Shown here piece by piece: positions 30,247 through 59,979 of a DNA stretch of 64,000 nt. Position numbers and translations under genes: made by a program. The stretch comes from Jiangella muralis (GTDB lineage: Bacteria > Actinomycetota > Actinomycetes > Jiangellales > Jiangellaceae). How positions within the stretch are numbered: the first letter of the stretch is position 1; every line of letters starts with the position of its first letter. The notes below the pieces were generated by a model that saw only the letters and a list, made by a program, of their open reading frames with translations, was not told where the DNA came from and made no database searches. The stretch covers positions 41,125 through 105,124 of the forward strand of contig NZ_KQ434752.1 in assembly GCF_001270745.1 (NCBI RefSeq), given 5' to 3'.

Positions 30247-30311
30247 ACGCTAGGGACCCGCCGCCGTCCCGGCAGGACGCCTGCTTGCCCTCCCGACCCC
30301 CGAACTTGCCC
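30247..30311 (-). promoter_or_regulatory. GGGCAA-N28-CCTANNNT promoter module B
   Basis: Read on the minus strand: GGGCAAGT (30311-30304), 13 bp, GGGCAAGC (30290-30283), exactly 28 bp, then CCTAGCGT (30254-30247), followed 30 bp later by the start codon. The two octamers are direct repeats 21 bp apart. The same layout occurs at 52666-52729, and single-octamer versions at 45967-46010, 45915-45958 and 59936-59979. Confidence 0.65.
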
Positions 30312-30350
30312 GGTCGGCCCACCCCGGCGGCCGGTGGGTCGCCGGCGGGT

Positions 30351-30555
30351 GGTTGCGATCGGGCGCGTTGACACCAGCGCCAACAGTTGGCATCGGTGTC
30401 AACACGCCCGGCAAGAGATGGCGCGGTCAGCGGCCGATGCCGCCGAACACCCCGCCACGCGTCACCCCCGGACGGTTGCGAACGGGCGCGTTGACACCAG
30501 CGCCAACAGTTGGCATCGGTGTCAACACGCCCGGCAAGAGATGGCGCGGTCAGCG
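30351..30555. repeat. Two direct copies of an 82-bp palindrome-containing repeat
   Basis: Units at 30351-30432 and 30474-30555 are almost identical (one visible difference near the start) and 123 bp apart. Each contains a large imperfect hairpin: GGGCGCGTTGACACC on one side, GGTGTCAACACGCCC on the other, with a central GCCAAC/GTTGGC pair. The second copy reaches into the stop codon of the aminotransferase gene (30550-30552), so the first looks like a duplication of that gene's terminator region. Nothing else is seen between 30312 and 30549. Confidence 0.8.
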
Positions 30556-31899
30556 CCGGAGGTCGTCGAACTCCCCGTCACGGAGGACGTCGGCGACGAC
30601 CTCCACCGTGTGGTCGATGTCCGCTTCGGTGTGGGCCGCCGAGAGGAACCACAGGCCGCGCGGCACGATGTTGATGCCGCGACGCAGCAGCCCGGCGTGC
30701 AGCCGGGCCATGCCGGCGCGGTCGGTGGCGGCGAAGTCGCGGTAGTCGCGCACGGCGTCGGCGCTGGTCAGGTAGGTCTGGAAGACCGGTCCGGGTCCGT
30801 CGACCAGCATCGGCACGCCGGCCGCCGCCGCCACGTCGCGCAGCCCCGCCATCAGCCGTCCGCCCAGCGTGCGCAGCCGCGGGTACAGCTCGTCGCCGTC
30901 GCGCTGGAGCCGGCCGAGCGTCGCGACGGTCGCGGCCATGCCGATCGGGTTGCTGTTGAAGGTACCGGCGTGGCCGACGGTGCCCGCCGTGATCTGGTCC
31001 ATCACCTCGGCGCGGCCGGCGATGGCGGCGACCGGCAGCCCGCCGGCGATCGCCTTGCCGTACACCGCGAGGTCCGGCACGACGCCGAACCACTCCTGCG
31101 CGCCGCCGCGGGCCAGCCGGAACCCGGTGATGACCTCGTCGAACACCAGCAGCGCCCCGGCCGCCGACGTCTGCTCACGCACCGCTTCCAGGAAGCCCGG
31201 CGCCGGCGAGATGCAGCCGGTGTTGCACAGCAGCGGCTCCATGACGACGGCGGCGATCTCGTCGCGGTGTGCCGCGAGCAGCGCGGTGAACGCGTCGAGG
31301 TCGTTCCAGGGCGCGACGACGAGGTCGGCGCCCGCGCTGGCCTGCTGGCCGCCACTCGCCGGCACCGGCACCGGCGCCTGCCGGGGGCCGGCCGCGTCGA
31401 CCGGCGGGTGCAGGCTCCACAGCGCGGCGTCCAGCCAGCCGTGGTAGTGCCCCTCGAACTTGAGGATCTTCTGCCGGCCGGTGAGGCCGCGGGCCAGCCG
31501 CCACGCGCCGATGACCGCCTCGGAGCCGACGGTGTTGAATCGCACCAGGTCAGCGCCCGGCACCATCGCCTGCACCAGCTCGGCCGCCTCGATCTCCAGC
31601 GCGTGCTGGCCGGCGTACGCCTGGCCGCGGGCCACCTGCCGGGTGACGGCCTCGACCACCTCGGGCGCGCTGTGGCCCAGGATCATCGGGCCCTGGCCGA
31701 GCACGTAGTCGATGTAGTCGTTGCCGTCGACGTCGGTCAGGTGCGCGCCGGCGGCGTGGTCGACGTACACCGGCTCGGGCAGGCCACGCCGGGCGTCGCT
31801 GGACACGCCGGCAGGCAGCACGCGGCTCGCGCGGGCGGCCAGCTCGGCGCCGCGCCGCAGCGGCGTGCGGGTACCTGCGGCGACGGTCGGGTTCGTCAT
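30550..31899 (-). CDS. Class III aminotransferase, glutamate-1-semialdehyde-aminomutase-like
   Basis: A 449-residue PLP enzyme of fold type I. RFNTVGSEAVIGAWRLAR binds the phosphate, LLVFDEVITGFR contains the Asp that binds the pyridine nitrogen, and Lys282 in LAVYGKAIAGGLP forms the Schiff base. The sequence resembles glutamate-1-semialdehyde 2,1-aminomutases but stands in a catabolic cluster, not with haem genes, so an omega- or beta-aminotransferase role is more likely. Start ATG with GAGGAGG. It is divergent from the Gfo/Idh operon at 32098. It could remove the amino group from an amino-sugar or amino-acid product. Confidence 0.85.
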   Translation of the reverse strand: MTNPTVAAGTRTPLRRGAELAARASRVLPAGVSSDARRGLPEPVYVDHAAGAHLTDVDGNDYIDYVLGQGPMILGHSAPEVVEAVTRQVARGQAYAGQHALEIEAAELVQAMVPGADLVRFNTVGSEAVIGAWRLARGLTGRQKILKFEGHYHGWLDAALWSLHPPVDAAGPRQAPVPVPASGGQQASAGADLVVAPWNDLDAFTALLAAHRDEIAAVVMEPLLCNTGCISPAPGFLEAVREQTSAAGALLVFDEVITGFRLARGGAQEWFGVVPDLAVYGKAIAGGLPVAAIAGRAEVMDQITAGTVGHAGTFNSNPIGMAATVATLGRLQRDGDELYPRLRTLGGRLMAGLRDVAAAAGVPMLVDGPGPVFQTYLTSADAVRDYRDFAATDRAGMARLHAGLLRRGINIVPRGLWFLSAAHTEADIDHTVEVVADVLRDGEFDDLRR

Positions 31900-31926
31900 C
31901 GATCCTCCTCGATCTGCGGTGGTCTG

Positions 31927-31983: not shown

Positions 31984-32048
31984 GGACAACTACGGGCCCT
32001 CGACGACACGAACAGCGCTTGCTGGCGCGGTCGCACGGCCCCTAGCGT
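31984..32048 (+). promoter_or_regulatory. Promoter of the Gfo/Idh-ABC operon, with a possible distal GGACAACT site
   Basis: TTGCTG (32019-32024), 18 bp, TAGCGT (32043-32048) is a good promoter. The -10 lies in CCTAGCGT as in module B. At the positions where the GGGCAA module predicts octamers, the distal one is GGACAACT (31984-31991) but the proximal one (32005-32012, GACACGAA) is poor. Membership in the same regulon is therefore uncertain. Confidence 0.4.
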
Positions 32049-32097: not shown

Positions 32098-33129
32098 GTG
32101 GATCAGCTCGGCATGGGCATCGTGGGCACGGGCATCATGGCCCGCCAGCACGCCGCCGTCCTCGCCGCCTACCACCGCAGCCGCGTCGCCGGGTGGAGCA
32201 GCCGCAACCCGGCGGCGGCCACCGGCCTGGACGAGTTCGGCCCGGCGCCGGTGTACGGCGACCTGGCAGCACTGCTCGCCGACGACTCCGTCGGCGCCGT
32301 CCTCGTCGCCACCCCCGACCACGCGCACGCCGAGGCGGCGCTGGCCGCCATCGCGGCCGGCAAGTCGGTGCTGATCGAGAAGCCGCTGGCCACGACGGCG
32401 GACGACGCCCGCCGCATCCGGGACGCGGCGCGATCCGCCGGGGTCACCGCGATGACGCTCTACAACCACCGCTGGGTGCCGGCCTACTGGCAGGCGCACG
32501 AGCGGTCAGCCGGCGGCGCCCTGGGCCGGCCGGTGCTCGCCTACGCCCGCAAGAACGACACCATCTACGTGCCGACGCAGATGCTCGACTGGGCCGATCA
32601 GACGACGCCGTCGCTGTTCCTGTCCGGGCACGACCTCGACCTCATCCTCTGGTACTTCGAGGAGCACGTGGTCGAGGTCTACGCGACCGCGGTGCACGGC
32701 GTGCTCCGCGACCGCGGCATCGACACCCCCGACGCCGTCCAGGCCCAGCTGCGGCTGTCCGGCGGCGCCGTCGTCACGCTCGAGGCGTGCTGGATCTACC
32801 CCGACACCTTCCCCACCATGACCGACTCGTTCCTCGAGCTCGTGTTCAGCGACGCGGTGATCCACCTGGACCGCAAGCACGAGCAGATCGAGCTCGCCAC
32901 ACACGAGTCGTTCGCGTATCCGCGTAACCAGCTCGCGGGCCGGGTCGGCGGCAAGCCGTCCGGCTCGATCGCGGGTGCGGTCGAACACTTCGTCGACGCC
33001 GTGCTGGACGGCCGGCCGCCGATCGTGTCGATCGACAGCTCGGTGCACGTCACCGAGGTTCTCGCCGCCATCGACCGGTCCTGGCGCTCTGGCCGGCCGG
33101 TCGACCTGACCGTGGAGTCCAACTCATGA
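32098..33129 (+). CDS. Gfo/Idh/MocA-family oxidoreductase
   Basis: A 343-residue dehydrogenase. The Rossmann motif GIVGTGIMARQHA follows the start, then VLVATPDHAHAEAAL and the canonical VLIEKPLATTADDARR with its catalytic Lys. LSGHDLDLILWYFEEHV carries the active-site His/Asp helix. I take the GTG at 32098-32100, with GGGGAGG about 11 nt upstream; an ATG five codons later is the alternative. It is the first gene of an eight-gene plus-strand operon and overlaps the solute-binding protein gene by 4 nt. Oxidation of an imported sugar or sugar acid at a ring carbon is the likely role. Confidence 0.85.
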   Translation: MDQLGMGIVGTGIMARQHAAVLAAYHRSRVAGWSSRNPAAATGLDEFGPAPVYGDLAALLADDSVGAVLVATPDHAHAEAALAAIAAGKSVLIEKPLATTADDARRIRDAARSAGVTAMTLYNHRWVPAYWQAHERSAGGALGRPVLAYARKNDTIYVPTQMLDWADQTTPSLFLSGHDLDLILWYFEEHVVEVYATAVHGVLRDRGIDTPDAVQAQLRLSGGAVVTLEACWIYPDTFPTMTDSFLELVFSDAVIHLDRKHEQIELATHESFAYPRNQLAGRVGGKPSGSIAGAVEHFVDAVLDGRPPIVSIDSSVHVTEVLAAIDRSWRSGRPVDLTVESNS

Positions 33130-34487
33130 AGACACGTTCGCTCCTCCGCGCCACCGCCGTGGCGACCGCCGTCATGCTGAGCCTGTCGGCCTGCATCACC
33201 GGCTCCGACTCCGGCGACGAGCCGGAGACCGAGAGCACGGGTGGCGGCGACGCCAGCGGCGGCGCCGCGGCCGAGATCACCGGCCCGCTCGAGGTCGTCA
33301 GCTTCTACCCCGAGGGCTCGCCCGACTTCGACCGGCTCAGCGGCCTGGCCGAGGAGTTCGAATCGCGGCACCCGGGCGTCGACGTGACGCTCACCTTCGG
33401 CGGCGGCCAGGACGTGCCGCAGATCGAGGCCCGCTGGCGGGCCGGCGACCCGCCGGACGTCAACTACGGCTTCCTCGACGCGTCCGTGCCGGACGGCGGC
33501 CCGTGGGTGTCGGCCGGCCAGGTGCTGCCGCTGGATGACCCAATGCAGCAGCCGCTCGAGGGCTACGACGGCAGCTGGGAGGACGCGATCCTGCCCGGCG
33601 TGCGGCCGCTGCTCAGCGTCGACGACACGATCTACAGCGCACCCGAGTCGGTGACGACGCTGCAGTTCTTCTACAACGCCGCGCTCTTCGCCGAGAACGG
33701 CATCGAGGCGCCGCAGACCTTCGAGGACCTCGTCGCCGCGGCCGACACGCTGAAGGCGGCCGGCGTCGCGCCGTTCACCGTCACCGGCACGTTCCTGCCG
33801 TACCTGCAGATGTACTGGGACTACCTGGCGTTGCGCCACATCGGGCTGGAGGGCCTGCAGCAGGCCATCGCCGGTGAGGTCGAGCTGGCGTCGCTGCCCG
33901 GCGCCGCCGAGGCGGCCGCCGACCTGGAGCGGCTGACGTCCGGCGGGTACTTCCTCGACGGCTTCCGCGGCGTCGACTTCACCTCCGCGCAGATGTCGTT
34001 CTTCCAGGGCGACGCGGCGATGATCCTGATGGGCTCGTGGCTGATCGGCGAGATGTCCGCCGCCATCCCCGAGGGCTTCGAGGTCGGCACGTTCGCGTTC
34101 CCGACGGTCGACGGCGGCAGCGGCGACCAGGACGGCCTGTTCGGCGGCACCAACGGGCAGATCGTCGCGAAGGACGGCGAGAACCCCGACGCCGCCGTGG
34201 CGTGGCTGCAGTTCGTCGCGGAGCCGGAGAACCAGACCGCCTACGTCCAGAACACCGGCGGTATCTCCGCCTACACCGGCATCGCCGCGCCGGAGGGCTT
34301 CGAGGACGTCACCGCCATGCTGGAGGACGGCGCCGCGTTCGCCCCGTCGTACATGGGCATCCTCGCGCTGAGCCAGGAGGTCCAGAACGCCTACCAGCAG
34401 CCGATCGCGCAGCTGTTCTTCGGCGAGATCGACGGCGCCACCATGCTCAGCCAGATGTCCGACGGCCTGCAGTCGGCCGCGGGCTGA
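33126..34487 (+). CDS. Sugar ABC transporter solute-binding lipoprotein (SBP_bac_1)
   Basis: A 453-residue lipoprotein with signal MKTRSLLRATAVATAVMLSLSAC, lipobox LSAC and the lipidated Cys at residue 23, then a Gly/Ser/Glu linker. Family-1 (maltose/multiple-sugar) features follow: GLAEEFESRHPGVDVTLTFGGG, QIEARWRAGDPPDVNYG, AAMILMGSWLIGEM and the Trp/Tyr-rich ligand cleft. It overlaps the Gfo/Idh gene by 4 nt and precedes two MalF/MalG-type permeases. No ATPase gene is in the operon, so a shared MsmK-type ATPase encoded elsewhere would be needed. Confidence 0.9.
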   Translation: MKTRSLLRATAVATAVMLSLSACITGSDSGDEPETESTGGGDASGGAAAEITGPLEVVSFYPEGSPDFDRLSGLAEEFESRHPGVDVTLTFGGGQDVPQIEARWRAGDPPDVNYGFLDASVPDGGPWVSAGQVLPLDDPMQQPLEGYDGSWEDAILPGVRPLLSVDDTIYSAPESVTTLQFFYNAALFAENGIEAPQTFEDLVAAADTLKAAGVAPFTVTGTFLPYLQMYWDYLALRHIGLEGLQQAIAGEVELASLPGAAEAAADLERLTSGGYFLDGFRGVDFTSAQMSFFQGDAAMILMGSWLIGEMSAAIPEGFEVGTFAFPTVDGGSGDQDGLFGGTNGQIVAKDGENPDAAVAWLQFVAEPENQTAYVQNTGGISAYTGIAAPEGFEDVTAMLEDGAAFAPSYMGILALSQEVQNAYQQPIAQLFFGEIDGATMLSQMSDGLQSAAG

Positions 34488-34518: not shown

Positions 34519-35418
34519 GTGCCACGCAGCCGGCCCAACCTGCTCGAGCGACAACGCCGCCGCCTCGTGGTGCCGTTCCTCCTGCCGGCCCTGGTGCTGT
34601 ACGCGCTGTTCATGCTGTACCCGGCGGTCACGACGTTCTACGTGGCGCTGACCAAGTGGGACGGCGTGAACGCACCGGAGTGGGCCGGCGCGGCCAACTT
34701 CACCCGGCTCACCGAGGACTCGCTGTTCAGCAGCACGATCACGCACACGATCGTGTTCACGGTGCTCGGCGCGCTGGTCCTGTTCCCCGGCGCGATGTTC
34801 TTCGGCTACGTGACGCAGCGGATGCGGCTGGGCCGGGTGTACCGGTTCCTGATCCTGGCGCCGGTCGCGCTGTCCGTCACCACCGCGGCGCTGCTGTGGA
34901 AGTTCCTGGTCGACCCGAACTTCGGCGCGGTGCAGAGCGTGCTGCGCGCGATCGGGCTGGACTCGCTCGCCTCGGTGGAACTGCTCGGCCGGCCGTCGAC
35001 GGCGATGCTCATGGTGGTGCTGGCGACGGTCTGGCACGGCATCGGGCTGTGGATGATGTTCTTCGCGGCCGCCGCCGAGCGGGTTCCGGCCGAGCTCAAG
35101 GAGGCCGCGACGCTGGACGGCGCCAGCTCGTTCCAGGTGTTCCGTCACGTCGTCTGGCCACTGATGTGGGAGGTCACCCGGACGCTGCTGATCCTCTGGA
35201 TGATCCAGGGGCTGCAGACGTTCGCGTTCATCATCGCGATGACGAACGGCGGCCCGCTGCGCGCCACCGAGGTGATCGGGACCTACCTCTACAAGGTCGC
35301 GTTCGCGTCGTCCGAGTTCGGCTACGCCGCGGCCATCGCCGTCGTGCTGTTCGCGGCGATCCTCGTCCTCACGCTGCTCTCCCAGCGGCTCACCCGGCGC
35401 GAAAGCGAGCAGTACTGA
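34519..35418 (+). CDS. Sugar ABC transporter permease (MalF type)
   Basis: A 299-residue membrane protein with six helices; the first (FLLPALVLYALFMLYPAVTTFYVAL) is typical of MalF/UgpA-type permeases. The coupling loop for the ATPase is ELKEAATLDGASSFQVFRHVVWPLM. The GTG start has GGAGAGGAGAG just upstream. It lies 31 bp after the binding-protein gene and overlaps the next permease by 1 nt. Confidence 0.9.
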   Translation: MPRSRPNLLERQRRRLVVPFLLPALVLYALFMLYPAVTTFYVALTKWDGVNAPEWAGAANFTRLTEDSLFSSTITHTIVFTVLGALVLFPGAMFFGYVTQRMRLGRVYRFLILAPVALSVTTAALLWKFLVDPNFGAVQSVLRAIGLDSLASVELLGRPSTAMLMVVLATVWHGIGLWMMFFAAAAERVPAELKEAATLDGASSFQVFRHVVWPLMWEVTRTLLILWMIQGLQTFAFIIAMTNGGPLRATEVIGTYLYKVAFASSEFGYAAAIAVVLFAAILVLTLLSQRLTRRESEQY

Positions 35419-36326: not shown

Positions 36327-36327
36327 G

Positions 36328-38487
36328 ATGACCGACGTACGACTGAACGTCAGCGAGGAGATCGGCGTCGCCCGGTCCGGCGAGGTGGTGGTGTGCGGCG
36401 TGCCGTTCGCTGCTGCCGGGCCGGTGTCGGTGCTGGTGGACGGCGCCGTGGTGCCGCACCAGTCGCTGTGGCGGCGGGGCGGGTGGGCCGGGCTGGCGTT
36501 CCCGGTGTCCGTCGGCGCGCGGGCGTCGGCGGAGGTGGTCGTGCGGCCGGCGGGTGAAGCTGGTCCCCCGCCGGCCGTGACGTCTTCGGCCGGGGCGTCC
36601 GGGCTGTCGCTGACGACGGGGGTGGTGACGGCGGAGATCGGGCTGTCCCCGTTCACCGTCGCGATCCCAGCGCTGGGCGTGCCCGCGGCCTCGGTGGTCC
36701 TGGTCGACGGCGACGGTGTCCGGCACGCCGCAGTGGTGCCGGACGGCGGTGTCACCGTCACGCAGGCCGGGCCGCTGCTCGCGGAGGTCTCGCTGACCGG
36801 GCGGTACGGGTCGTCGTGGGGGTTCCGGGCCCGGCTGACGGCCAGGGCCGGGGCCTCCTCGGTGGACCTCTCCGTCGGGCTGGTCAACGACGACGACGCG
36901 GCGGAGAGCGAGGTCGCCGAGTGGGCCGTCGAGCTGGACGCCGGGCCGGTGGCGACCGCCGTCACCGGCGTCTTCGGGGCCGCCCACCGCGGCGCCCCGC
37001 CGTACGCCGTCCAGCACCGCGGCGAGGGCCACCCGCGCGGCATCTTCGCGACGTCGCAGGTGGTGGGCGGGTCGGGCTGGCAGGACGTCAGCGACCCGGA
37101 CTACTGGTCGCGCTGGGAATGGGCCGAACTGCACGGCCGTCAGGCGGTGAACTGGCTGGTCGCGTCGCGGCCGGGCGGCGAGGATGTCACCGTCGCCGTC
37201 CACCGGTTCGCCGAGAACCACCCGAGCGACCTCGCCGTGTCACCGTCCGGCGTGACCGTCCGGTTCTGGCCGTCCGACGCGGGCGCGCTGCGGCTCACGC
37301 AGGGCGCGGCGAAGACCCGGCAGCTGCGGCTGACCGGCGGCGACGACCGGCGGGCCGGGCCGGTGCTGGACTCGCCGCTGGTGCCCGCCCTCCGCTCGGC
37401 CGTCCCCGGCTACCTGCCGTACCTGCCGGAGCGCTACCCGAACCTGGAATCGCACATCCGCGAGGAGCTGTCCAGCTGGTACCAGTCCGGGCAGTCGCTG
37501 GGCTTCCACGACTTCGGTGACAGCGTGCAGGGCATCACGACCGGCCCGCGCACCGGGTACAGCGCGAACAACGAGCACGACGCGCTGCTGGCGCTGTCGC
37601 TGCACCACCTGCGCTCCGGCGAACGGGCGTACTACGACTCCGCCCAGGCCTACGCCGACCACCTGTGCGACGTCGACCTCATCCACCACAGCACCCACCC
37701 GCACGAGGTCGGCGGGCTGCGGGCGCACGGGCGGGCGCACGTGCACTACGTCTCCGCGCGGACCCCCGACGGGCCGGTGCGGACGTCGATCGACACCGGG
37801 CACCTGTGGACCGAAGGGCTGGTGCTGTTCGGGCAGCTGTCCGGCGAGACCCGGTACCTGGACGCCGCGCGGCAGGTGGCCGACTGCATCGTCGGGCTCG
37901 TCGACCTCGGCTGGACCCGGCCGGAGCCGGGGCCGCGCAACAGCGGCTGGCCGCTGATGGCACTGTGCGCCGTCGCATCGGCGACCGGTTCGTCCGTCTA
38001 CCTGGACGCCGCTCTGCGGACCGCCAAGGCGGCGGTGGCCGCGCAGCACCCGGACGGGCGCTGGCTGATGCGGCTCGGGCTGGCCGACGACTACTGCGCC
38101 TGGCAGAACGCCGTCCTGCTGATCGGGCTGGCCCGGCTGCAGGCGCTGTCGCCGTCGTCCGAGGTGGCCGCGGCCTTCGACGCCGGGGCGCGGGCGCTGC
38201 TGACGCTCGGCCGCAACCCCGACGGCAGCTTCGTCTACCTGTCCCGGTTCGACTACCGGTGGGCGAACCGGGCGGCGCTGATCCGCGAGGCGCTGGCGCT
38301 CGCCTTCGACGCCACCGGCGACGACGCGTACCTGCGGGCCGGGCTGGCCGGCGGGTCGCGCTGGTACCGGCCGCGGACGCTGGCGCCGGCGCTGAGCAAC
38401 GACGTCGCCGAGTGGCGCGGGCACCTGCCGTTCCTGCTCCGGGCGCATGAGGCCGGGCTGCTCACCGACCTGCCGGACGCCGGATGA
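36328..38487 (+). CDS. YetA/PcRGLX-like carbohydrate-active protein
   Basis: A 719-residue protein. Residues 1 to about 340 are beta-rich; the start (VVVCGVPFAAAGPVSVLVDGAVVPHQSLWRRGGWAGLAFPVSV) matches the N-terminal beta-sandwich of YetA and the Penicillium exo-rhamnogalacturonan lyase family. Residues 370-710 are an alpha/alpha toroid: NNEHDALLALSLHHLRSG, HSTHPHEVGGLRAHGRAHVHY, DTGHLWTEGLVLFGQLSGE and NSGWPLMALCAVASATG, with conserved His and Trp residues. No signal peptide, so it would act on imported oligosaccharides. The context with a sugar importer supports a role in uronide or glycoside breakdown. Lyase activity is inferred from family resemblance. Confidence 0.65.
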   Translation: MTDVRLNVSEEIGVARSGEVVVCGVPFAAAGPVSVLVDGAVVPHQSLWRRGGWAGLAFPVSVGARASAEVVVRPAGEAGPPPAVTSSAGASGLSLTTGVVTAEIGLSPFTVAIPALGVPAASVVLVDGDGVRHAAVVPDGGVTVTQAGPLLAEVSLTGRYGSSWGFRARLTARAGASSVDLSVGLVNDDDAAESEVAEWAVELDAGPVATAVTGVFGAAHRGAPPYAVQHRGEGHPRGIFATSQVVGGSGWQDVSDPDYWSRWEWAELHGRQAVNWLVASRPGGEDVTVAVHRFAENHPSDLAVSPSGVTVRFWPSDAGALRLTQGAAKTRQLRLTGGDDRRAGPVLDSPLVPALRSAVPGYLPYLPERYPNLESHIREELSSWYQSGQSLGFHDFGDSVQGITTGPRTGYSANNEHDALLALSLHHLRSGERAYYDSAQAYADHLCDVDLIHHSTHPHEVGGLRAHGRAHVHYVSARTPDGPVRTSIDTGHLWTEGLVLFGQLSGETRYLDAARQVADCIVGLVDLGWTRPEPGPRNSGWPLMALCAVASATGSSVYLDAALRTAKAAVAAQHPDGRWLMRLGLADDYCAWQNAVLLIGLARLQALSPSSEVAAAFDAGARALLTLGRNPDGSFVYLSRFDYRWANRAALIREALALAFDATGDDAYLRAGLAGGSRWYRPRTLAPALSNDVAEWRGHLPFLLRAHEAGLLTDLPDAG

Positions 38488-40115
38488 CCGGCGACGTGCG
38501 GATCGACGCGAACGTCGTCGTCGGGCCGTGGCCGTCCGACGCGCACGCGTCGTGGACCGTCGACGACGTCGAACGGCACCTGGACCGGTACGGCCTGTCG
38601 TACGGGCTGGTGCGGTCCGCGCTCGCCGTCACGTACGACGCGCCGTCGGGGAATTCCTCGCTGCTGAAGGAGGTCGAGGGGCACCCGCGGCTGCTGCCGT
38701 CGTTCGTGCTGGGACCGCTGGACTGCGGTGAGCACGGCGCCGATGCGGTCGCCGAGGCGAAGGCGATCTGGCTGTTGCCGGCGCGGCACGGGTGGAATCT
38801 CACGGGACCGGAGGCCGGCTCGCTGCAAGACGTGCTGCGGCGGGCCGGTCTCCCCGTGTTCGTGGAGCTCGAGGAGACCGACTGGTCCGGGATCGACGCA
38901 CTCTGCGCCGCGCTCCCCGACGTCGACGTCGTCGTCTGCGGCATCGGGTACCGGACGCTGCGGCAGGCGCTCCCCGTCATGGACCGGCGGCCGCGGCTGC
39001 ACCTGGACCTCTCCTATTTGGCCGCGCTGGACGGGCTGGAGCTGTTCGCCGCCCGGTACGGCGCGTCGCGGCTGCTGTTCGGCACCGGCGCCCCCGTCCG
39101 CGACGAGGCGGCGCCGTCGTTCCTGCTGGAGCGCTCGGGGTTGTCGGCGGACGACCGGGCGATGGTGGCCGGCGGGACGGCCGCCCGGCTGCTCGGCCTC
39201 GCCGGCGGCGTTGCCGCCCAGCCCACGCCCGCCGACGCCGTTCACGCCACGTTGTCACAGCCCGCCCGTAGGGTGGGAGCCCTCCCGGCCGGGCGGGGTC
39301 CAGCTACGGTCGCGAACCGCGCCGGCCGCACCGAGTACCCGGACATCGTCGACGCGCACGCTCATCTGGGCCGCTGGCCGTCGTCGTGGCTGCCGCACCC
39401 CGAGGCGGACACGCTGCTGGCCGCGTACGACCGCACCGGCACCCGGCACGCCGTCATCTCGCACCTGAGCGCCATCTGGGGTGGCGACACCCCCGCCGGG
39501 AACGCGGCCGCGCTGGCCGCCGCGGCCGCCCACCCGGACCGGCTCTCCGTCTGGCTGGTCGCGAACCCGAACCGGCCGCAGGACGCCGGGTTGCTGGCCG
39601 AGCAGCTGGGCTCCCCACTGGTGCGCGGATTCAAGGTGCACCCGGACACCCACGACTGCCCGATCGACGACGCCCGCTACGACTGGGTGTGGCGACTCGC
39701 GCTGAACGCGTCCGTGCCGGTGCTGGCGCACGGGTTCGCCGGGACGACGCACAGCGACCCGCTGCTGTTCGGCCACGTCGCCGCGCGGCACCCCGGGCTG
39801 CCGCTGATCGTCGGCCACTCCGGCGCCACCGTCGACGGGTTCCGCCGCACCATCGACGTCGGCCTGCGCTACCCGTCCATCCTGGCCGAGACCTGCGGTT
39901 CCTGGATGACCGGCCGGTGGCTGCGCCGCCTGGTCGCCGCGCTCGGTGCGTCACGCGTGCTGCACGGCACCGACGCGTGCCTCATCGATCCCCGGTACGG
40001 CGTCGGGCGGGTGCTCGGCGCCGGTCTCGACCCGGCCGATCTGGCCCTCGTGCTCGGCGGCAACGCCCGCCGGGTACTCGGGCTGTCTTCACCGTCCCCG
40101 CTTGGAGGTCACTGA
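38484..40115 (+). CDS. Double amidohydrolase: inactive-looking N half fused to an intact amidohydrolase-2 domain
   Basis: A 543-residue protein with two tandem TIM-barrel domains. The C half (from about 285) has the full amidohydrolase-2 set: DIVDAHAHLG, FKVHPDTH, VPVLAHGF, IVGHSGATV and VLHGTDACL. The N half (1 to about 250) has the same strand order but no ligand: RIDANVVVG in place of DxHxH, VFVELEE and VVCGIGY where His residues belong, and LFGTGAP without the Asp. It is therefore a pseudo-enzyme fused to an enzyme. The linker (about 250-285) is Ala/Arg/Pro-rich. It overlaps the neighbouring genes by 4 nt and 1 nt. The genes 56031 and 56762 show the same pairing as separate proteins. Confidence 0.8.
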   Translation: MTGDVRIDANVVVGPWPSDAHASWTVDDVERHLDRYGLSYGLVRSALAVTYDAPSGNSSLLKEVEGHPRLLPSFVLGPLDCGEHGADAVAEAKAIWLLPARHGWNLTGPEAGSLQDVLRRAGLPVFVELEETDWSGIDALCAALPDVDVVVCGIGYRTLRQALPVMDRRPRLHLDLSYLAALDGLELFAARYGASRLLFGTGAPVRDEAAPSFLLERSGLSADDRAMVAGGTAARLLGLAGGVAAQPTPADAVHATLSQPARRVGALPAGRGPATVANRAGRTEYPDIVDAHAHLGRWPSSWLPHPEADTLLAAYDRTGTRHAVISHLSAIWGGDTPAGNAAALAAAAAHPDRLSVWLVANPNRPQDAGLLAEQLGSPLVRGFKVHPDTHDCPIDDARYDWVWRLALNASVPVLAHGFAGTTHSDPLLFGHVAARHPGLPLIVGHSGATVDGFRRTIDVGLRYPSILAETCGSWMTGRWLRRLVAALGASRVLHGTDACLIDPRYGVGRVLGAGLDPADLALVLGGNARRVLGLSSPSPLGGH

Positions 40116-42809: not shown

Positions 42810-42815
42810 GGGCCG

Positions 42816-43184: not shown

Positions 43185-43201
43185 TCGACTATCGACATCG
43201 G

Positions 43202-43231
43202 TTTGCACTCTTGAAATCGACCGCCTAGGCT
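43202..43231 (+). promoter_or_regulatory. Promoter and possible XRE operator of the small-gene pair
   Basis: TTGCAC (43203-43208), 17 bp, TAGGCT (43226-43231) is a good plus-strand promoter for the 43308 gene. An imperfect dyad TTTGCACTCTTGAAA (43202-43216) covers the -35 and would overlap a minus-strand TTTCAA -35 for the XRE gene, as expected for an autoregulating XRE repressor. Confidence 0.5.
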
Positions 43232-43307
43232 GTTCGCCTGTAGACGCCTGATTGCAGGCTAGCAACTCGCGCGAGGATCCCCTAGGACCGTCGGAAAGGA
43301 GGAGCAC

Positions 43308-43445: not shown

Positions 43446-43482
43446 GGTGGCGTTCCCCCACACAACCCGAGAGGTCACCAAG

Positions 43483-45886: not shown

Positions 45887-45914
45887 CCGGGTCTCCTCTG
45901 TTGTGATCACCCGG

Positions 45915-45958: not shown

Positions 45959-45966
45959 ACTACAGA

Positions 45967-46010: not shown

Positions 46011-46017
46011 GGCCGCA

Positions 46018-50255: not shown

Positions 50256-50277
50256 GACGGGCTCCTCACTTCGGGGG

Positions 50278-52611
50278 TTACCGGCCGGGTCCGACGATGA
50301 CCCGGATCGGCGTGGAGGTGCTCGGTGCATGTGCCAGGTCGCCGCCGTACGTCGCGACCAGCTGGTAGAGACCCGGCCCGCCCACGTCGGACGCCTTGAC
50401 GGTGACGGTGGCGGCGCCGTCGCGCAGCTCCCCCGTCGCGACGGCCGCGCCCGGCGACCCGTCGGGCCGGACCCGGTGCAGCGTGACCGCGCCGGTCGGC
50501 TCGCCGGGCGGGCTACCGACCTCGACGCTCACCACGGCCGGCCCGCCGGCCGACGCCGGGCGCAGCCCCGTCGACGCGGTGGTGGAGGTCGGCGCGGGCG
50601 CGATGTCGGGCAGCGTCCGCAGCAGCGCGCCGCCGCTCCCCCAGTACGCGCGGTCCGATCCGTCGAACGCGAGCGTCCGGTAGTACCCGCTGCCCGGCGT
50701 CGCCACGGTCTCGACGGTGTCGGTGCCGGCCGGGATCCGGACGATCGCGCCGCCGGTGTGCCCGTACAGGTCGCCGCCGGGACCGTCGATCAGGCCCAGC
50801 AGCGTGCCGCCCGGGAACGCGCCCAGCACCGTCACGACGCCGGTGGCCGGGTTCATCCGGAACCAGGTCCCGTCCGCCGACCCGTACAGCGTGCCGTCGG
50901 CGGCGGTCTCCAGCGTGAGGATCCGGGTCGCGCCCGGCACCGGCACGACGGACGCGAGCACCGTCCCGTCGTCCGGGTCGACGGTGAGCAGCTGGGCGTC
51001 GCCGCCGGCGTCGGTGTCGTCGCCGTAGCGCGTCGTACCCCCGTAGATCACCCCGTCGCCGGCCGCGACGGAGAAGAAGTGCTGGTCGCCGGCCAGGCCG
51101 CGGAACGACTCGACGGCGTACGTCACCGGGTCGATCGCGGTCAGCGCGCCGCGCAGCGCGCCGTACGCCCCCGACGACGCGACCCAGACCCGGCCGTCCG
51201 GCCCGACCTCCATGTCCCACGGCCGGTACTGGTTGTCACCGACCGGGCCGAGGTCGCGCGGGTTCGACGTCGGCGAACTGCCCGGGTTCCAGGGCTGCGC
51301 CGGGTCGAAGACGGTGACGACGTTGTTGATGTACGAGCCGATGAAGATCTTGCCACCGGTCGTCGTCATGGACAGGATCTCGCCGGTGCGGCCGGGTGCG
51401 ACGTTGCCGTAGACGGTGGTGTCACCGGTGTCGGCGTCGTAACCGAACAGCGCGTTGGTCTCGTAGGTGCCGCCGTAGACGTCGCCGTCCGGGCCCTGGA
51501 CCAGCGCGGTGATGTTCGTCGGGTCGCCCGGCAGCGACAGCTGGTGGGTCCAGACCTCGCCGGTCGCCGGGTTCCACCGGCCGAGCAGCCCGTTGCTGCC
51601 GACGCTGGCGAACCACTGCTGCCCGCCGATCGTCACCGGCTGCATCTGCGCCGCCGACACGAACGTCGGCGCCGTGCCGGTGCTGGTCGTGGCGAGCGTG
51701 TCACCGTCGACGGCGACGATGCCGCCGGGGCCGGTCGCGTAGAAGTCGTTCGGGTCGGCGCCGCCCTGCGCGGCGAAGCCCATCCCGGTGATGCCCAGCA
51801 CCTCGGCGTCGAACGTCATCGTCGCCGCGTCGAACCGGATGATCTTCGAGTCCGGCGTCACCAGCTGCACGTACACCCAGTCGCCGATGCGCAGCGAGTT
51901 GTAGGCGAACGAGTAGTGCTGGTACGCCGCCGGCAGCACCTCGGTCGTCGCGCCGGTGGCGATATCGACGACCAGGACGCTCGCGTCGGTGCCCTGCGCG
52001 ACCACGAGCCGGTTCGCGTCGAGCACCGTCAGGCCCTTGGGGTAGGTGCGGGCGGAGACGACGAGGCGCACGGCGCCGGTGACCGGGTCGTACTCGTAGA
52101 CGCCGGCGCCGGAGTGCACGCCGCAGTAGACCTTGCCGGTGTACGGCGACACCGTGATGCCGAAGCACATGATGCCGGTCGGCATCGTCGCCACCAGCGA
52201 CACGGTGTCGGCGACCGGGTCGTACTCCCAGAGCTGCGACGCGCTGGACGAGTTCAGCGGGCCGAGGTAGATGCGCCCGTCCGGCGCGGCGGCGACGTGG
52301 TAGCCGCCCCACGCGCCGGGCATGGGCAGCTCGGTGCGGACGGCGCCGGTCTCCGGGTCGACGCCGAAGAACGTCACGCCGTCGCTGGGCGCATTGTACG
52401 TGCTGCCGTAGAGGGTCGGGTCGCCGTTGGCGTCGTCGGCGAGGACGGTGTCGAGGACGAGGTAGGTGGAGATGGGGATGCCGAGGTTCTCGACGACACC
52501 GGGCGCGACGGGATCCGCGGGAGCCGCCGCGGCCGGTGCCAGCAGCACCGTCGCGGCGACCGCGGCCAGCGCGGCGAGACGTCGTGGGAATCGTGCACGC
52601 AAGGAAGGCAT
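50278..52611 (-). CDS. Exported large beta-propeller protein, paralogue 2, with C-terminal Ig-like domain
   Basis: A 777-residue protein with a Sec signal (MPSLRARFPRRLAALAAVAATVLLAPAAAA). Residues 40 to about 655 repeat the propeller seen in the 43868 protein with many identical blocks. It has about 100 extra residues at the end: a short linker (APAPTSTTASTGLRP) and an Ig-like beta-sandwich (VVSVEVGSPPGEPTGAVTLH and later YQLVATYGGDLAHAPS) of the kind found at the ends of actinobacterial secreted proteins. No catalytic motif seen. The ATG has AGGAG 4 nt upstream. Its promoter carries module D with two octamers. Confidence 0.76.
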   Translation of the reverse strand: MPSLRARFPRRLAALAAVAATVLLAPAAAAPADPVAPGVVENLGIPISTYLVLDTVLADDANGDPTLYGSTYNAPSDGVTFFGVDPETGAVRTELPMPGAWGGYHVAAAPDGRIYLGPLNSSSASQLWEYDPVADTVSLVATMPTGIMCFGITVSPYTGKVYCGVHSGAGVYEYDPVTGAVRLVVSARTYPKGLTVLDANRLVVAQGTDASVLVVDIATGATTEVLPAAYQHYSFAYNSLRIGDWVYVQLVTPDSKIIRFDAATMTFDAEVLGITGMGFAAQGGADPNDFYATGPGGIVAVDGDTLATTSTGTAPTFVSAAQMQPVTIGGQQWFASVGSNGLLGRWNPATGEVWTHQLSLPGDPTNITALVQGPDGDVYGGTYETNALFGYDADTGDTTVYGNVAPGRTGEILSMTTTGGKIFIGSYINNVVTVFDPAQPWNPGSSPTSNPRDLGPVGDNQYRPWDMEVGPDGRVWVASSGAYGALRGALTAIDPVTYAVESFRGLAGDQHFFSVAAGDGVIYGGTTRYGDDTDAGGDAQLLTVDPDDGTVLASVVPVPGATRILTLETAADGTLYGSADGTWFRMNPATGVVTVLGAFPGGTLLGLIDGPGGDLYGHTGGAIVRIPAGTDTVETVATPGSGYYRTLAFDGSDRAYWGSGGALLRTLPDIAPAPTSTTASTGLRPASAGGPAVVSVEVGSPPGEPTGAVTLHRVRPDGSPGAAVATGELRDGAATVTVKASDVGGPGLYQLVATYGGDLAHAPSTSTPIRVIVGPGR

Positions 52612-52665: not shown

Positions 52666-52729
52666 AACCTAGGTGCGCGGCGTACGCGGCGACAGCCGGA
52701 TAGTTGCCCCGAGGGCCGGAGACTTGCCC
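52666..52729 (-). promoter_or_regulatory. GGGCAA-N28-CCTANNNT promoter module D
   Basis: On the minus strand GGGCAAGT (52729-52722), 12 bp, GGGCAACT (52709-52702), exactly 28 bp, CCTAGGTT (52673-52666), then 54 bp to the ATG. The octamers are direct repeats 20 bp apart. The -10 happens to contain ACCTAGGT, half of the other operator family. It lies in the 302-bp gap 52612-52913. Confidence 0.65.
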
Positions 52730-52913: not shown

Positions 52914-53804
52914 TCAACCGGCGTGGAAGAAACGCTTCCAGTTCTCGTGCACGATCTGGTCCTGCACGTCCACCGGCAGCGTCGGCAGCGGCGTCCCGGC
53001 GACGACGTCGTTCACCCGGCGCAACCCCTCCAGGGTCTGCTGCACCGTGGCGCTCGGGAAGTCCGACGCGAACAGCAGCTTGCCCGTCACGCCGTACTCG
53101 AACGCCGTCGTCATCGCGTGCCAGAACCGGTACGGCCGGTAGTGCAGTGCGGAGATGTCGGCGTAGACGTTGGGCGCCTTGCGCATCAGCGCGACGACGT
53201 CCTCCTCCCACGGGTGGCCGAGGTGCGCGATGATCACCCGCAGCGACGGGAACCGCATGACCAGCCGTTCCAGCAGCAGCGGCTGGGCGAACTCCAGCCG
53301 CGCCGTCGTCGGGAAGGTGGTGCCCTGGTGGACGATGACGGGCAGGTCGTGCCGCGCGCAGTACTCGAACACGCCCCACAGTGACGTGTCGCGCGGGTCC
53401 CAGTGCTGGTACGTCGGGCCGACCTTGAGGCCGCGCAGGCCGAGGTCCTCGACACAGCGGACCAGCTCGTCGACGGCGCCGGGCTCGCCCGGGTTCACCG
53501 ACGCCCACCCCTCGAGCCGGTCCGGGTGCTCCCGGACGTACGACGCGATGACGTCGTTGGGCACGTCGAACCCGGTCGGCTTGGCGGCCATCCCGAACAC
53601 GACGACGCGGTCCGCCTGCTGCGCCGCCGCCCAATGCTCTGACGGCGTGGAGTCGTAGCAGTGCAGGTCGAGGTGGGCGGCGTTGGTGAGACCGCCGCTG
53701 CGCTCGAGCTTGACCAGCTTCGCGGCCAGCGCCTCGCCGGCGGTGCGGTCGCTGATGTGGTCCGGGTACCACATCACGTGCGTGTGGACGTCGACGACGG
53801 CCAT
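52914..53804 (-). CDS. Amidohydrolase-2 family hydrolase
   Basis: A 296-residue TIM-barrel hydrolase. VVDVHTHVMWYPDH gives HxH near the N-terminus; LKVGPTYQHWDPRD, LPVIVHQGTTFP, RVIIAHLGHPWEED and LLFASDFPSATVQQ supply the remaining metal His residues and the catalytic Asp. Relatives are lactonases and gamma-resorcylate or ACMSD-type decarboxylases. The ATG overlaps the AraC stop by 1 nt (TGATG), so it is made with the regulator. Cytosolic. Confidence 0.85.
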   Translation of the reverse strand: MAVVDVHTHVMWYPDHISDRTAGEALAAKLVKLERSGGLTNAAHLDLHCYDSTPSEHWAAAQQADRVVVFGMAAKPTGFDVPNDVIASYVREHPDRLEGWASVNPGEPGAVDELVRCVEDLGLRGLKVGPTYQHWDPRDTSLWGVFEYCARHDLPVIVHQGTTFPTTARLEFAQPLLLERLVMRFPSLRVIIAHLGHPWEEDVVALMRKAPNVYADISALHYRPYRFWHAMTTAFEYGVTGKLLFASDFPSATVQQTLEGLRRVNDVVAGTPLPTLPVDVQDQIVHENWKRFFHAG

Positions 53805-54997
53805 CAGCCGACCGCCCGCAGCACCGGCGTCGTGACCTGGCGGCGGTACTCGCTCGGTGTCACGTGGAAGGTCCGCTTGAACAGCTCGCGGAACCGCTTC
53901 GGCGCCTGGTAGCCGACCTGCTCGGCGACCAGCTCGACCGGCAGGTCGGTCTCGGCCAGCAGCCGCCGCCCGTGCCGCATCCGCACCGCCGTCAGGTATT
54001 TGAGGAACGTGGTGCCGAGTTCGCGCTGGAACAGGTGGCTGATGTAGTACGGGCTGACGAACACCGCCTCGCTGACGGTGACCAGCCGCAGGTCGTCGGC
54101 GTAGTGGTCCTGGATGTGCCGCTCGACGACGGCGAGGACGTGCCGGGCCGGCGACGGCGCGGCGTGCGAGGCGACGATCCGCGGCAGCAGTTGCTCCAGC
54201 CACAGCACCAGGTAGGAACGGTCGTGGATGTCGTACATCTCGGCCACCTCGTTGAGCGGCAGCCGCGAACAGGCCGCGATCCAGTCCGTCGAGCCGTCCG
54301 ACAACCGGCGTTGCCCCGCCACCTCCAGCGCGTACAGCACCTCGGCGGCCAGCCACTCGCGCAGCACGTCCGGCGTCACACCGTCGACGGCGCTGACCCG
54401 CTCGATCCAGGACCGCAGCGTCGCCACCGCGCCGGTCGCGTCGCCGCGGCGGATGCAGCGGGCCAGCCGTTCCTCCACCCGGTCCGGCACCGGCACCGGC
54501 CCGGCTCCGGCCGCCCGCGCGACCCGCACGTCGGCGAGGTCGTACACCGCGTCGCCGCCGCTGACCAGCTTGTGGTCCAGCGCGGCCACCGCCTCCGCCG
54601 TCGCCGCCTCGACCCGCGCCGGCCCGGTGCTGGTCCGGCTGATGCCCACCGTCACGGCCACCCCGCAGGCGGCCTGGACGCGGTCGCGCACGAGCGCGGC
54701 GAACCGCCGCCCGGTGGCGCGCAGCTCGGTCGGGTCGGCGCCGTGGAAGGTCACCATCCAGGCGTCCGGCGGGACGGCGACGACGGCGCCGTGCCGCTCC
54801 GGCGCGTAGCCGGCGGCGCAGCGTTCGACGGCGGCCGCGGCGGCCTCCAGCATGCCCGCCGCCCACTCGTCGCCGCGGGACAGCCGGTTCACCTCGAAGT
54901 CGTCGATGTCGGCCAGGACCACGAGCACGTGGCCCTCGTCACCGGCCTGGTCCGGCACGGTGATCGCCTGGCCGAGGACGGTCGAGTGGTGTCGCAT
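53804..54997 (-). CDS. AraC-family regulator with degenerate GGDEF-like N-terminal domain
   Basis: A 397-residue protein. Residues 15-165 resemble a nucleotide-cyclase/GGDEF fold (VLVVLADIDDFEVNRLSRGDEWAAGML, then VAVTVGISRT) but without a GGDEF sequence, so a sensing role is likely. A helical middle (175-290) follows. The C-terminal about 100 residues are two AraC helix-turn-helices: VSEAVFVSPYYISHLFQRELGTTFLKYLTAVRM and LVAEQVGYQAPKRFRELFKRTFHVTPSEYRR. Start ATG with GGAGGAG upstream. It is divergent from the 55117 operon and cotranscribed with an amidohydrolase gene. AraC activators bind direct repeats about 21 bp apart near -35, so it is the best candidate for the GGGCAA modules; this is inference. 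Confidence 0.82.
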   Translation of the reverse strand: MRHHSTVLGQAITVPDQAGDEGHVLVVLADIDDFEVNRLSRGDEWAAGMLEAAAAAVERCAAGYAPERHGAVVAVPPDAWMVTFHGADPTELRATGRRFAALVRDRVQAACGVAVTVGISRTSTGPARVEAATAEAVAALDHKLVSGGDAVYDLADVRVARAAGAGPVPVPDRVEERLARCIRRGDATGAVATLRSWIERVSAVDGVTPDVLREWLAAEVLYALEVAGQRRLSDGSTDWIAACSRLPLNEVAEMYDIHDRSYLVLWLEQLLPRIVASHAAPSPARHVLAVVERHIQDHYADDLRLVTVSEAVFVSPYYISHLFQRELGTTFLKYLTAVRMRHGRRLLAETDLPVELVAEQVGYQAPKRFRELFKRTFHVTPSEYRRQVTTPVLRAVG

Positions 54998-55075
54998 GGC
55001 TCCTCCAGTGATCGGCTCGCCCGCTGCCGGCACCCCTTGACCGACGCGGAACGGGCTGTTCAGTAGCCGCTGATG

Positions 55076-55089
55076 TCTGATATACCAGA
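55076..55089. promoter_or_regulatory. TCTGATATACCAGA operator between araC-type and DapA-type genes
   Basis: A 14-bp inverted repeat (12 of 14 positions symmetric) of the TGGTATACCA kind bound by many FCD-type GntR proteins. It lies 27 bp before the GTG of the 55117 operon, which carries its own GntR gene, and in the divergent promoter of the AraC gene. It is unlike the ACCTA...TAGGT sites, so it probably belongs to the 58518 regulator. Confidence 0.5.
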
Positions 55090-55116
55090 GCCGTCCCCTT
55101 CGTGGAAAGGCCAACC

Positions 55117-57514: not shown

Positions 57515-58524
57515 GCGTAGAAACCCTGCCGATGGTGCAGGTGGGCTGCGGCGACATCGCGACGACGGGGCACCTGCCGGCGCTGGACCGCTCCCCCGCC
57601 GTCACGCTGGTGGGCGTCGTCGACGTCGTCCCCGAGCATCGCGACGCCGCCGCCGCGGCCTACGGCGTCCCCGCCTGGACGGACCTCGGCCCGGCCGTCG
57701 CGGCGGGCGCACGGGCCGCCGTCGTCGCCGTCCCGCCGCACGTCGCGCCGGAGCTGACGCTGGCCGCCGTCGACGCCGGGCTGGACGTGCTGTGCGAGAA
57801 GCCGATGGCCGTCGACCTCGCGTCGGCGCAGCGGGTGCACGACGCCGGGCGAGCGGCCGGGCGGATCGTCCAGATCGGCTTCAAGAACCGGTTCTCGCCG
57901 CTGGTCCGGGCCGCGCGGCGGTGGCTGGACGACGGCCTGATCGGGTCGCCGGTCGTGTACACGCTGGCCGGCTTCGACGAGCGCTACGACGCCGCCGACA
58001 CCGTCCACACCGGGCGCATCCAGGAGTTCCTCGCCCACGGGCCGTCCTACCTGCACGAGGGCGCGCACCTGGCCGACTACGTCGCGTACCTGACCGGCGC
58101 GTCGCCGGTGCGGGTGCGCGCCGCCGGGCTGCGGTCGCGGCCGTCGTTCCGGGGCGAGAACTTCGCGTCCACGCTGGTCGACTATGACAACGGCGACGTC
58201 GCCCGCATGGAGGTGGGCTGGTTCTTCCCCACCTCGCCGAAGGGCGACTTCCGCATCCTCGGGCCGCGCGGCGTCGCGCTGATCGACCGGCCCGAGCAGG
58301 TGGCCACGCTGACCACCCGCGAGGACGGCACGCTGCGCACCGAGGAGGTGCGGTTCGAGCGGCCGTGGAACGACGAGTGCTTCGACCGGCAGCTGGCCCA
58401 TTTCGTCGAGTGCGTGCGCACCCGGGCCGAGCCGGAGACGTCGACGGCGGCCGGGCTCGCGTCGCTGCGCATCGGGGCGGCCGTGACGGAGTCGCTGCGA
58501 GAGGGGACGGTGGTGGCATGGTGA
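57511..58524 (+). CDS. Gfo/Idh/MocA-family oxidoreductase
   Basis: A 337-residue dehydrogenase. The cofactor loop reads VGCGDIATTGHLPAL, then AAVVAVPPHVAPEL and the canonical VLCEKPMAVDLASAQ with the catalytic Lys; HGPSYLHEGAHLADYVAYLTG is the substrate helix with the conserved His. GTG start overlapping the previous stop by 4 nt. The third Gfo/Idh member in the window; the three differ in the EKP motif and in length, so they are not recent copies. Confidence 0.86.
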   Translation: MSVETLPMVQVGCGDIATTGHLPALDRSPAVTLVGVVDVVPEHRDAAAAAYGVPAWTDLGPAVAAGARAAVVAVPPHVAPELTLAAVDAGLDVLCEKPMAVDLASAQRVHDAGRAAGRIVQIGFKNRFSPLVRAARRWLDDGLIGSPVVYTLAGFDERYDAADTVHTGRIQEFLAHGPSYLHEGAHLADYVAYLTGASPVRVRAAGLRSRPSFRGENFASTLVDYDNGDVARMEVGWFFPTSPKGDFRILGPRGVALIDRPEQVATLTTREDGTLRTEEVRFERPWNDECFDRQLAHFVECVRTRAEPETSTAAGLASLRIGAAVTESLREGTVVAW

Positions 58525-59195
58525 CCGAGGACCGGCCCGTGATCCGCGAGGTTCCGCTGATCCGCGACCAGGTGTACCAGGTGCTGCTGACCAAGCTGAT
58601 CAACGGCGAGCTGACACCCGGCGACAAGATCACCGAGCGGGTCACGGCGCAGGAGCTGGGCATCAGCACGACGCCGGTGAAGGAGGCGCTGCGCCGGCTC
58701 GAGAACGAGGGGTTCGTGCGCACCATGCCACGCCGCGGCATCGTCGTCGGCGAGAACGCGCTGACCTCGTTCGAGCAGGTCATCACGGTGCGCGGGTGGC
58801 TGGAAGGGCTGGCCGCCCGGCTGTGCGCGGTGCGGGTGGCCGACGGCGACCTGACCGGCGTCGCCGCGCTGGCCGAGCCGCTGGAGCTGATGAAGGACCC
58901 GATCCTGCGCCCGGTCCCGGAGATCATCGAGATCAACGCCGCGTTCCACGACGCGATCCGGGACCTGTCCGGCAACCGCGTCATCGTCCAGTTCCTCGGC
59001 ACCCTGCTCGGGGTCGACGCCGCCGTGCGCGAGCGCGCGCTGCAGGACCCGGACGAGCTGCAGCGCGGCAACGCCGAGCACATCGACGTCGGCGACGCGA
59101 TCCTCGACGGCGACCCGGACCGCGCCGAGGCGCTGATGCGCAGCCACGTGCTGCGCTCCGGCGACCACACGCTGCACGCCAGGATCGGGTCGTGA
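58518..59195 (+). CDS. GntR-family (FCD) transcriptional regulator
   Basis: A 225-residue regulator. The winged helix is at about 8-75 (LIRDQVYQVLLTKLINGELTPGDKI, and LGISTTPVKEALRRLENEGFV); the FCD domain fills the rest (ITVRGWLEGLAARLCA, INAAFHDAIRDLSGN, AEHIDVGDAILDGD). It is not close to the 3607 protein in the recognition helix (STTPVKEAL versus SQRVVRDAL), so a different operator is expected. ATG 58518, or GTG 58521 with a GTGA overlap. It sits inside the operon it probably controls through the palindrome at 55076-55089. Confidence 0.87.
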   Translation: MVTEDRPVIREVPLIRDQVYQVLLTKLINGELTPGDKITERVTAQELGISTTPVKEALRRLENEGFVRTMPRRGIVVGENALTSFEQVITVRGWLEGLAARLCAVRVADGDLTGVAALAEPLELMKDPILRPVPEIIEINAAFHDAIRDLSGNRVIVQFLGTLLGVDAAVRERALQDPDELQRGNAEHIDVGDAILDGDPDRAEALMRSHVLRSGDHTLHARIGS

Positions 59196-59947
59196 CGGCG
59201 CTGCTGGCCGAGCTGACCCGGACCGCGGTCGCACGGCGGGCGCCGGACGCCGTCGCCGTCGTGCCGGTCGGGGCGTGCGAGCAGCACGGGCCGCACCTGC
59301 CGCTGAGCACCGACCTCATGGTGGCCGAGCACCTGGCCCGCGACGCGGCGGATCGGCTGGCGGGGTCGGTGGACGTCGTCGTGGCGCCGGGCGTCGCCGT
59401 CGGGTACTCGCCGCACCACGTGCCGATCGGCGCGACGCTGACCGCGGGGGTGGGCACGCTGCTGGCCCAGCTGCGCGACACCTGCGCCGGGCTGGCGGCG
59501 GCCGGGTTCGGCCGGATCTTCCTGCTCAACGGGCACGGCGGCAACGCCGAGCTGATCGTCGTCGCCGCCAGGGAGGCCGGGCAGGCGCTGCGGGTGCCGG
59601 TCGGCGCCGGGTCGTACTGGGTGATGGCGTGGGACGATCTGGTCGCGGCCGGCGCGCAGGACCACGGCCGGCTGCCCGGCCACGCCGGCGCGTTCGAGAC
59701 GTCGCTGGTGCTGGCGCTGCGCCCGGACCTCGTCGACGACCCGCCGCACCGGCCGGGCGCCCCGTTCGCGCGCAACCCGGCCGGCTACTGGGGCCGCTAC
59801 CACGTGGAACGGCCCGACGCGATGGCCCAGGGCGACGGCTGCTCCGACGACCCGTCGGCCGGCACCGCCGACGACGGCCGCCGCTACCTCGACGCCGCCG
59901 CGGGCGCCGTCGCCGCGGCGCTGCGTGAGTTCGCAGGACAAGTCTGA
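59192..59947 (+). CDS. Creatininase-family amidohydrolase
   Basis: A 251-residue protein with the family motifs intact: VPVGACEQHGPHLPLSTDLMVAE (Glu30, His32, Asp41 as metal ligands) and IFLLNGHGGNAELI. The family includes creatinine amidohydrolase, MftE-like peptidases and formamide hydrolases acting on cyclic amides. FETSLVLALRPDLV near the C-terminus supplies the last Glu. GTGA junction with the GntR gene; it is the last gene of the operon. It adds a third type of amide-cleaving enzyme to the window. Confidence 0.88.
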   Translation: MTALLAELTRTAVARRAPDAVAVVPVGACEQHGPHLPLSTDLMVAEHLARDAADRLAGSVDVVVAPGVAVGYSPHHVPIGATLTAGVGTLLAQLRDTCAGLAAAGFGRIFLLNGHGGNAELIVVAAREAGQALRVPVGAGSYWVMAWDDLVAAGAQDHGRLPGHAGAFETSLVLALRPDLVDDPPHRPGAPFARNPAGYWGRYHVERPDAMAQGDGCSDDPSAGTADDGRRYLDAAAGAVAAALREFAGQV

Positions 59948-59979
59948 GCCTGTCGCGGCCGTACCCCGTTCCGTAGCCT
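59936..59979 (+). promoter_or_regulatory. GGACAAGT-N28-CGTAGCCT promoter module E
   Basis: GGACAAGT (59936-59943, inside the end of the creatininase-family gene), exactly 28 bp, CGTAGCCT (59972-59979) with TAGCCT as -10, then 35 bp to the GTG at 60015. It is the most divergent of the five copies but keeps the spacing. No second octamer is seen upstream. Confidence 0.45.

Follow-up and report, generated by a model that had tools for sequence, protein, structure and literature searches.

The locus examined here raises the question of whether genes for secreted propeller proteins, enzymes and an importer, scattered along one stretch of Jiangella DNA, share a promoter element, and through which regulator such an element would act. 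The window (the whole 64-kb stretch of DNA analysed, G000:C2:41125-105124) has J. endophytica, J. ureilytica and J. anatolica as its nearest named relatives. In an original prediction five promoter 'modules' (A to E) had been described in it, each consisting of an octamer exactly 28 bp before a -10 element, and had been attributed to an AraC-type protein encoded at 53804 that would control a surface-protein regulon.

Anatomy of the promoter modules

The five-module observation is confirmed: all of the octamer/-10 pairs were found where they had been placed, to the base, as were the second octamers of B and D, which lie 21 and 20 bp further up (start to start). The pattern GNRCAANNN-N28-CNTANNNT has exactly five matches in the whole 64-kb window (30247-30290, minus strand; 45915-45958, minus; 45967-46010, plus; 52666-52709, minus; and 59936-59979, plus), a count that is circular because the pattern was drawn from those same sites; in 100 shuffles it occurred 0.04 times on average and once at most.

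Module A (45967-46010, plus strand) joins the octamer GGGCAAGA to CTGTGC and the -10 element CCTATCGT, ahead of gene A (ATG 46018); its TATCGT ends 7 nt before that ATG, so that the gene A transcript is probably leaderless. Divergent from it, module C (45915-45958, minus) precedes a propeller gene (43868-45886). Module B (30247-30311, minus; distal octamer at 30311) precedes BNR paralogue 1 (28909-30216), module D (52666-52729, minus; distal octamer at 52729) precedes the second propeller gene (50278-52611) together with BNR paralogue 2 (48930-50330), and module E (59936-59979, plus) precedes a transglutaminase-like gene (GTG 60015 to 61403). This gene order is the one originally given, except that the label 'deacetylase-like' for gene A finds no counterpart in Pfam, where the gene has no family above cut-off. 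Directly 3' of gene A lies a DegT/DnrJ/EryC1 aminotransferase domain (47724-48923, plus) within a longer frame (45792-48923); the two are possibly co-transcribed as a putative operon, with 47724 a possible start.

The place of the -35 element in each module is occupied by the CTG element, which corrects the earlier description. CTGnnn and TAnnnT are separated by 17 or 18 bp in the window and by 17-19 bp in the aligned orthologous promoters described below, which is the tolerance of an ordinary -35/-10 pair; by reading, the -35 region of the modules is weak compared with the TTGACA of the neighbouring aminotransferase promoter.

Two further promoters can be added to the set. Module F (27722-27764, plus) carries GGGCAAGAACCGGCCTGGCG and the -10-like sequence CAGGAT, which is without the first T, and starts 78 bp before an enolase-superfamily (MR_MLE) gene (27800-28903). 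Its GGGCAAGAACCGGCCTGGCG box and CAGGAT are identical in all seven genomes that were compared, a conservation to which coding constraint contributes, since F falls within the 3' end of the frame before it; third codon positions in F are likewise fixed. Module G (31984-32048, plus) comprises a distal octamer GGACAACT, a degenerate proximal copy, TTGCTG and the -10 element CCTAGCGT, of which the distal site and the -10 are present in 7/7 genomes (one octamer base differs in G001). It stands before an oxidoreductase gene (32098-33129), whose relatives in the PDB are inositol and sugar dehydrogenases, and then importer genes. Downstream, on the plus strand and ending at 40115, follow genes for a solute-binding protein (33126-34487), a permease (34519-35418), a second permease (in a frame ending at 36326), a 719-aa protein (36328-38487) and an amidohydrolase (38484-40115); their order and strand suggest common transcription. 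When the PDB was searched by sequence, gene A, the amidohydrolase, the 719-aa protein and the frame at 25122 all stayed without a match at the thresholds chosen. With conserved sites also at the enolase-superfamily gene and at the oxidoreductase/ABC-importer operon, the term 'surface-protein regulon' proves too narrow, and these two targets suggest a substrate-utilisation regulon instead.

The direct repeats at B, D and G are 20-21 bp apart, and the nearer copy abuts the -35 region; measured from the start of the distal octamer, the -10 octamer is 57 bp away at B and G, and 56 bp away at D. No clear distal copy was seen at A, C, E or F.

Conservation and confinement to the locus

Gene A, BNR paralogue 1, the gene behind module E and the AraC orthologue occur in the same seven of 12 Jiangella genomes (its own included), the AraC orthologues being 90-95% identical. 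Orthologous promoters could be aligned for A in 7 genomes, B in 6, C in 5, D in 7 and E in 7, giving 32 sites. Module A keeps its box and -10 in 7/7 genomes, with a different first octamer base in two; D and E are each kept in 7/7. Module B is kept in 6/7, with other sequence in its place in G005, whose row was dropped from the column counts for B because the promoter is replaced there. Module C is kept in the five genomes that have its propeller gene at the locus, and both module and gene are missing there in G005 and G008. Two islands stand out in the aligned promoters, the octamer-CCTG part and the -10: invariant columns number 34/40 in the octamer, 19/27 in the middle, 30/36 in CCTGnn and 37/40 in the -10, against 24/80 in the spacer and 76/172 upstream.

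The alignment also qualifies the claim of 'exactly 28 bp'. That distance holds at all five window sites and at 23 of the 32 aligned sites, but it is 29 bp in the other 9/32 and about 27 bp in F, so that the exact value is a property of this genome only.

When each module in turn was left out of a matrix and searched for with the remainder, A, B, D and E each ranked first among the window's non-training positions, and C, the weakest of the five, came third. On this held-out recovery and the conserved islands, chance was rejected as the origin of the modules. A sequence-only model built on the 32 sites was then run on 20 genomes, with 150 candidates scored per genome. Its 32 matches at E<1e-3 were the training sites themselves; since the model was built from the sites that it found, only its silence elsewhere is informative. 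Outside the training sites no match reached E<1e-3 among the 150 candidates of each of the 20 genomes (a depth at which weak sites could be missed), the best other match having E=0.0105, and in the five Jiangella genomes without the locus the best E values ranged from 0.06 to 0.30. Module F was found by the model in four relatives (E 0.117 to 0.765), while its own-genome copy was not among the matches listed. Within the window the module appears only from 27.7 kb on, and the regulon seems confined to this locus.

Several weaker candidates were discarded. A box-like match at 20366 (minus) is kept in 6/6 relatives, but lies inside the frame of a solute-binding protein, where coding conservation accounts for it; G004:C4:116202 is a promoter with CCTGTC and CCTAGCGT and without the octamer; G005:C77:74850 shows no recognisable module; and a match at 43093 has no aligned relative. 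Near this last match, the stretch 42222-43481 encodes a Peptidase M78 (IrrE-like) protein beside an HTH_3 regulator, and the missing alignment suggests that the stretch may be an insertion.

The candidate regulator and its rivals

The AraC-family protein at 53804 (53804-55114, minus; likely start ATG 54997) contains HTH_18 and GGDEF_2 domains, and its double helix-turn-helix (residues ~330-426) finds its best PDB match in 6swi, followed by AraC (2k9s) and YesN (3lsg). Anatomy, direct repeats and conservation speak strongly for a shared AraC-like promoter module. From its co-occurrence with the genes of the locus and from a paralogue beside an octamer in G005, this protein appears to be the likeliest regulator of the modules, with a probability that we would put at about 0.75; the module itself would, at the same probability, serve a local AraC-type activator regulon as both operator and core promoter. 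Both the binder and the activation we infer, a GntR protein of the locus shares the distribution of the AraC orthologue, and the control originally proposed is partly supported. Each site, of ~17-20 bp (GGRCAAG, some 7-8 bp, then CCTG), would end in the weak -35 region, with the -10 (TAnnnT) 17-18 bp after CTGnnn in this genome; the second copy 20-21 bp upstream at B, D and G would make room for two subunits on direct repeats. On a signal, the AraC protein would occupy the sites and, as a class II activator, bring in RNA polymerase, switching on the secreted propeller proteins, the transglutaminase-like protein and gene A, as well as the enolase-family enzyme and the oxidoreductase/importer/amidohydrolase genes. 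Against the AraC reading stand the lack of a clear distal copy at A, C, E and F and a 1-bp variation in the distance from GGRCAA to CTG, which a rigid AraC site would not usually show. At the promoter of the AraC gene itself we saw no module either.

Paralogous loci offer some further guidance. On contig C219 of G005, an AraC paralogue (52%) is the immediate upstream neighbour of a propeller paralogue (66% to the propeller of module C), at whose promoter GGACAAGT precedes ACTAGCGT by 57 bp, as the distal octamer does the -10 octamer in B and G. Another propeller paralogue, on contig C77, has GAGCAAGA, then 21 bp on GCGCAAGA, and 36 bp further on CCGAGCAT, a poor -10. In distant clusters an AraC homologue was found near the same aminotransferase, amidohydrolase and oxidoreductase genes in all five that were examined (the absence of the enolase-family, DegT and second permease genes from this comparison is uninformative, as those queries were out of frame). 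Exact GGRCAAGW occurs in three of the five distant aminotransferase promoters and near copies in the other two, against 0.019 expected per 300 bp and strand; being related to each other, the five clusters do not count as independent cases, and the distances to their -10s are different.

In the C219 paralogue the AraC protein's first recognition-helix region is almost unchanged, and three homologues of the g5 genus have a similar first region but a diverged second one; in two Jiangella cluster-2 homologues the first helix differs although the box is kept. With the exception of these last two, the pattern is that expected if the first helix reads the retained GGRCAAG, an assignment modelled on AraC, RhaS and MelR.

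A regulator of the GntR/FCD type (GntR2, 58365-59195), encoded at the same locus, is the first of the proteins that might bind the modules instead. Its orthologues occur in the same 7/12 genomes, and on C219 a homologue of 49% is the neighbour of the AraC paralogue, so that the C219 locus does not separate the two proteins. Operators of GntR-type proteins are usually dyads or palindromes; the aligned modules, by reading, show direct repeats and no dyad, while an imperfect dyad (TGATATACCA / TCTGGTATATCAGA) at 55078-55087, between the AraC gene and an aldolase-family gene, is unchanged in 7/7 genomes and is itself a candidate GntR2 operator. As no homologue of GntR2 was found in 16-kb stretches of three g5-genus clusters either, we consider its binding to the modules unlikely. 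A regulator encoded elsewhere in the genome, such as a response regulator, is a slightly poorer prospect: sequence offers no proof that the binder is local, and the AraC query has 22 matches in the own genome (mostly to its DNA-binding part), but every genome with a module match at E<1e-3 bears the locus, and at C219 an AraC paralogue travels with the site.

Two conserved blocks at a constant distance within one genome might also recall an alternative (ECF) sigma factor that reads octamer and -10 without any activator. The -35 and -10 elements of ECF promoters are, however, ~16-17 bp apart, and the 28-29 bp from octamer to -10 is far above such a spacer; the -35 place is already filled by the CTG element 17-18 bp from TAnnnT, an octamer-free promoter with CCTGTC and CCTAGCGT exists elsewhere, and the distal copies at B, D and G would be unexplained, all of which makes this reading very improbable. 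The chance that a PucR-type regulator (61473-63143) binds the module is close to negligible: it sits at the border of the locus and carries a GGDEF-like domain, but at E<=1e-100 it is without a match in G001 and G011, two genomes that retain all five modules. A SARP activator was rejected on spacing, because SARP sites are repeats in 11-bp steps of which the last is ~8 bp from the -10, and the repeats here are 20-21 bp apart with the nearer octamer 28-29 bp from the -10 octamer.

Known systems, gene content and other elements

The architecture to which the AraC reading points, direct-repeat sites next to the -35, is already known from rhamnose regulators and from MtlR. For the AraC-family L-rhamnose regulators of Bacillales, Bacteroides and Enterococcus, 21-bp direct repeats common to all three have been described (PMC3870299); those regulons resemble the present one in being local AraC-family utilisation regulons with a similar repeat distance (20-21 bp here), but differ in motif, and several sites here have one clear copy only. 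At the mannitol promoter of Pseudomonas fluorescens, MtlR uses two similar 15-bp blocks, directly repeated at -72 to -58 and -50 to -36, that adjoin the -35, the upstream block being experimentally the stronger site (PMC4514859). Similarly, the distal copy is the better one in module G, but MtlR concerns one promoter and another motif and was characterized by experiment, whereas the modules here are known from sequence; the sensor domain of the AraC protein likely differs from that of MtlR. Likeness to the PDB matches (6swi, a two-component response regulator, 2k9s and 3lsg) extends over the double helix-turn-helix, but the AraC protein has a GGDEF-like domain and, in Pfam, no receiver domain. 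According to one study, whose subject is an AraC-type response regulator, it has not been possible to identify a consensus site for the family (PMC3572039). Searches of titles and abstract openings on Jiangella AraC proteins or regulons returned nothing on this locus, those on Streptomyces AraC direct repeats found none, and those on YesN gave unrelated work only; within the literature on the first two subjects, the motif and regulon appear unreported.

Taken by their families, the genes resemble the parts of a system that locates, takes up and degrades a complex substrate, probably a glycan. A conserved motif and seven promoters can now be listed for one candidate AraC-type regulator, and one likely switch ties secreted propeller proteins of unknown function to an importer and enzymes, which offers a route to the substrate. 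A broader and doubtful proposal is that the GGDEF-like AraC regulators in this actinobacterial family make up a class of sensor for one kind of complex substrate, in which the first helix-turn-helix would read a slowly changing GGRCAAG half-site common to genera and the second a fast-changing -35 half, so that related clusters would keep one architecture yet stay separate, with an optional distal copy grading promoter strength. Paralogous and cross-genus sites could reveal how either half of an AraC site changes.

Other elements share the window. A second, palindromic motif occupies its left half (best copy ACATAGGTCCTATGT, perfect at 21370 and near-perfect at 3516, 7747, 7768 and 24552), at promoters that start beside a GntR/FCD gene at 3607; with up to three mismatches there are 11 matches on both strands against 0.66 expected, and the motif is conserved in 7/7 genomes at two of those promoters that were inspected. 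It probably marks a separate GntR regulon. Between an aminotransferase gene and BNR paralogue 1 lies a 123-bp tandem repeat with inner inverted repeats (30351-30582), which has extra copies in one relative (L053). Finally, paired inverted repeats (CCATGATCAT ... ATGATCATGG) of constant 56-bp length recur between genes (L139, L142, L144, L147, L071 and L130), and are possibly a small repeated element.
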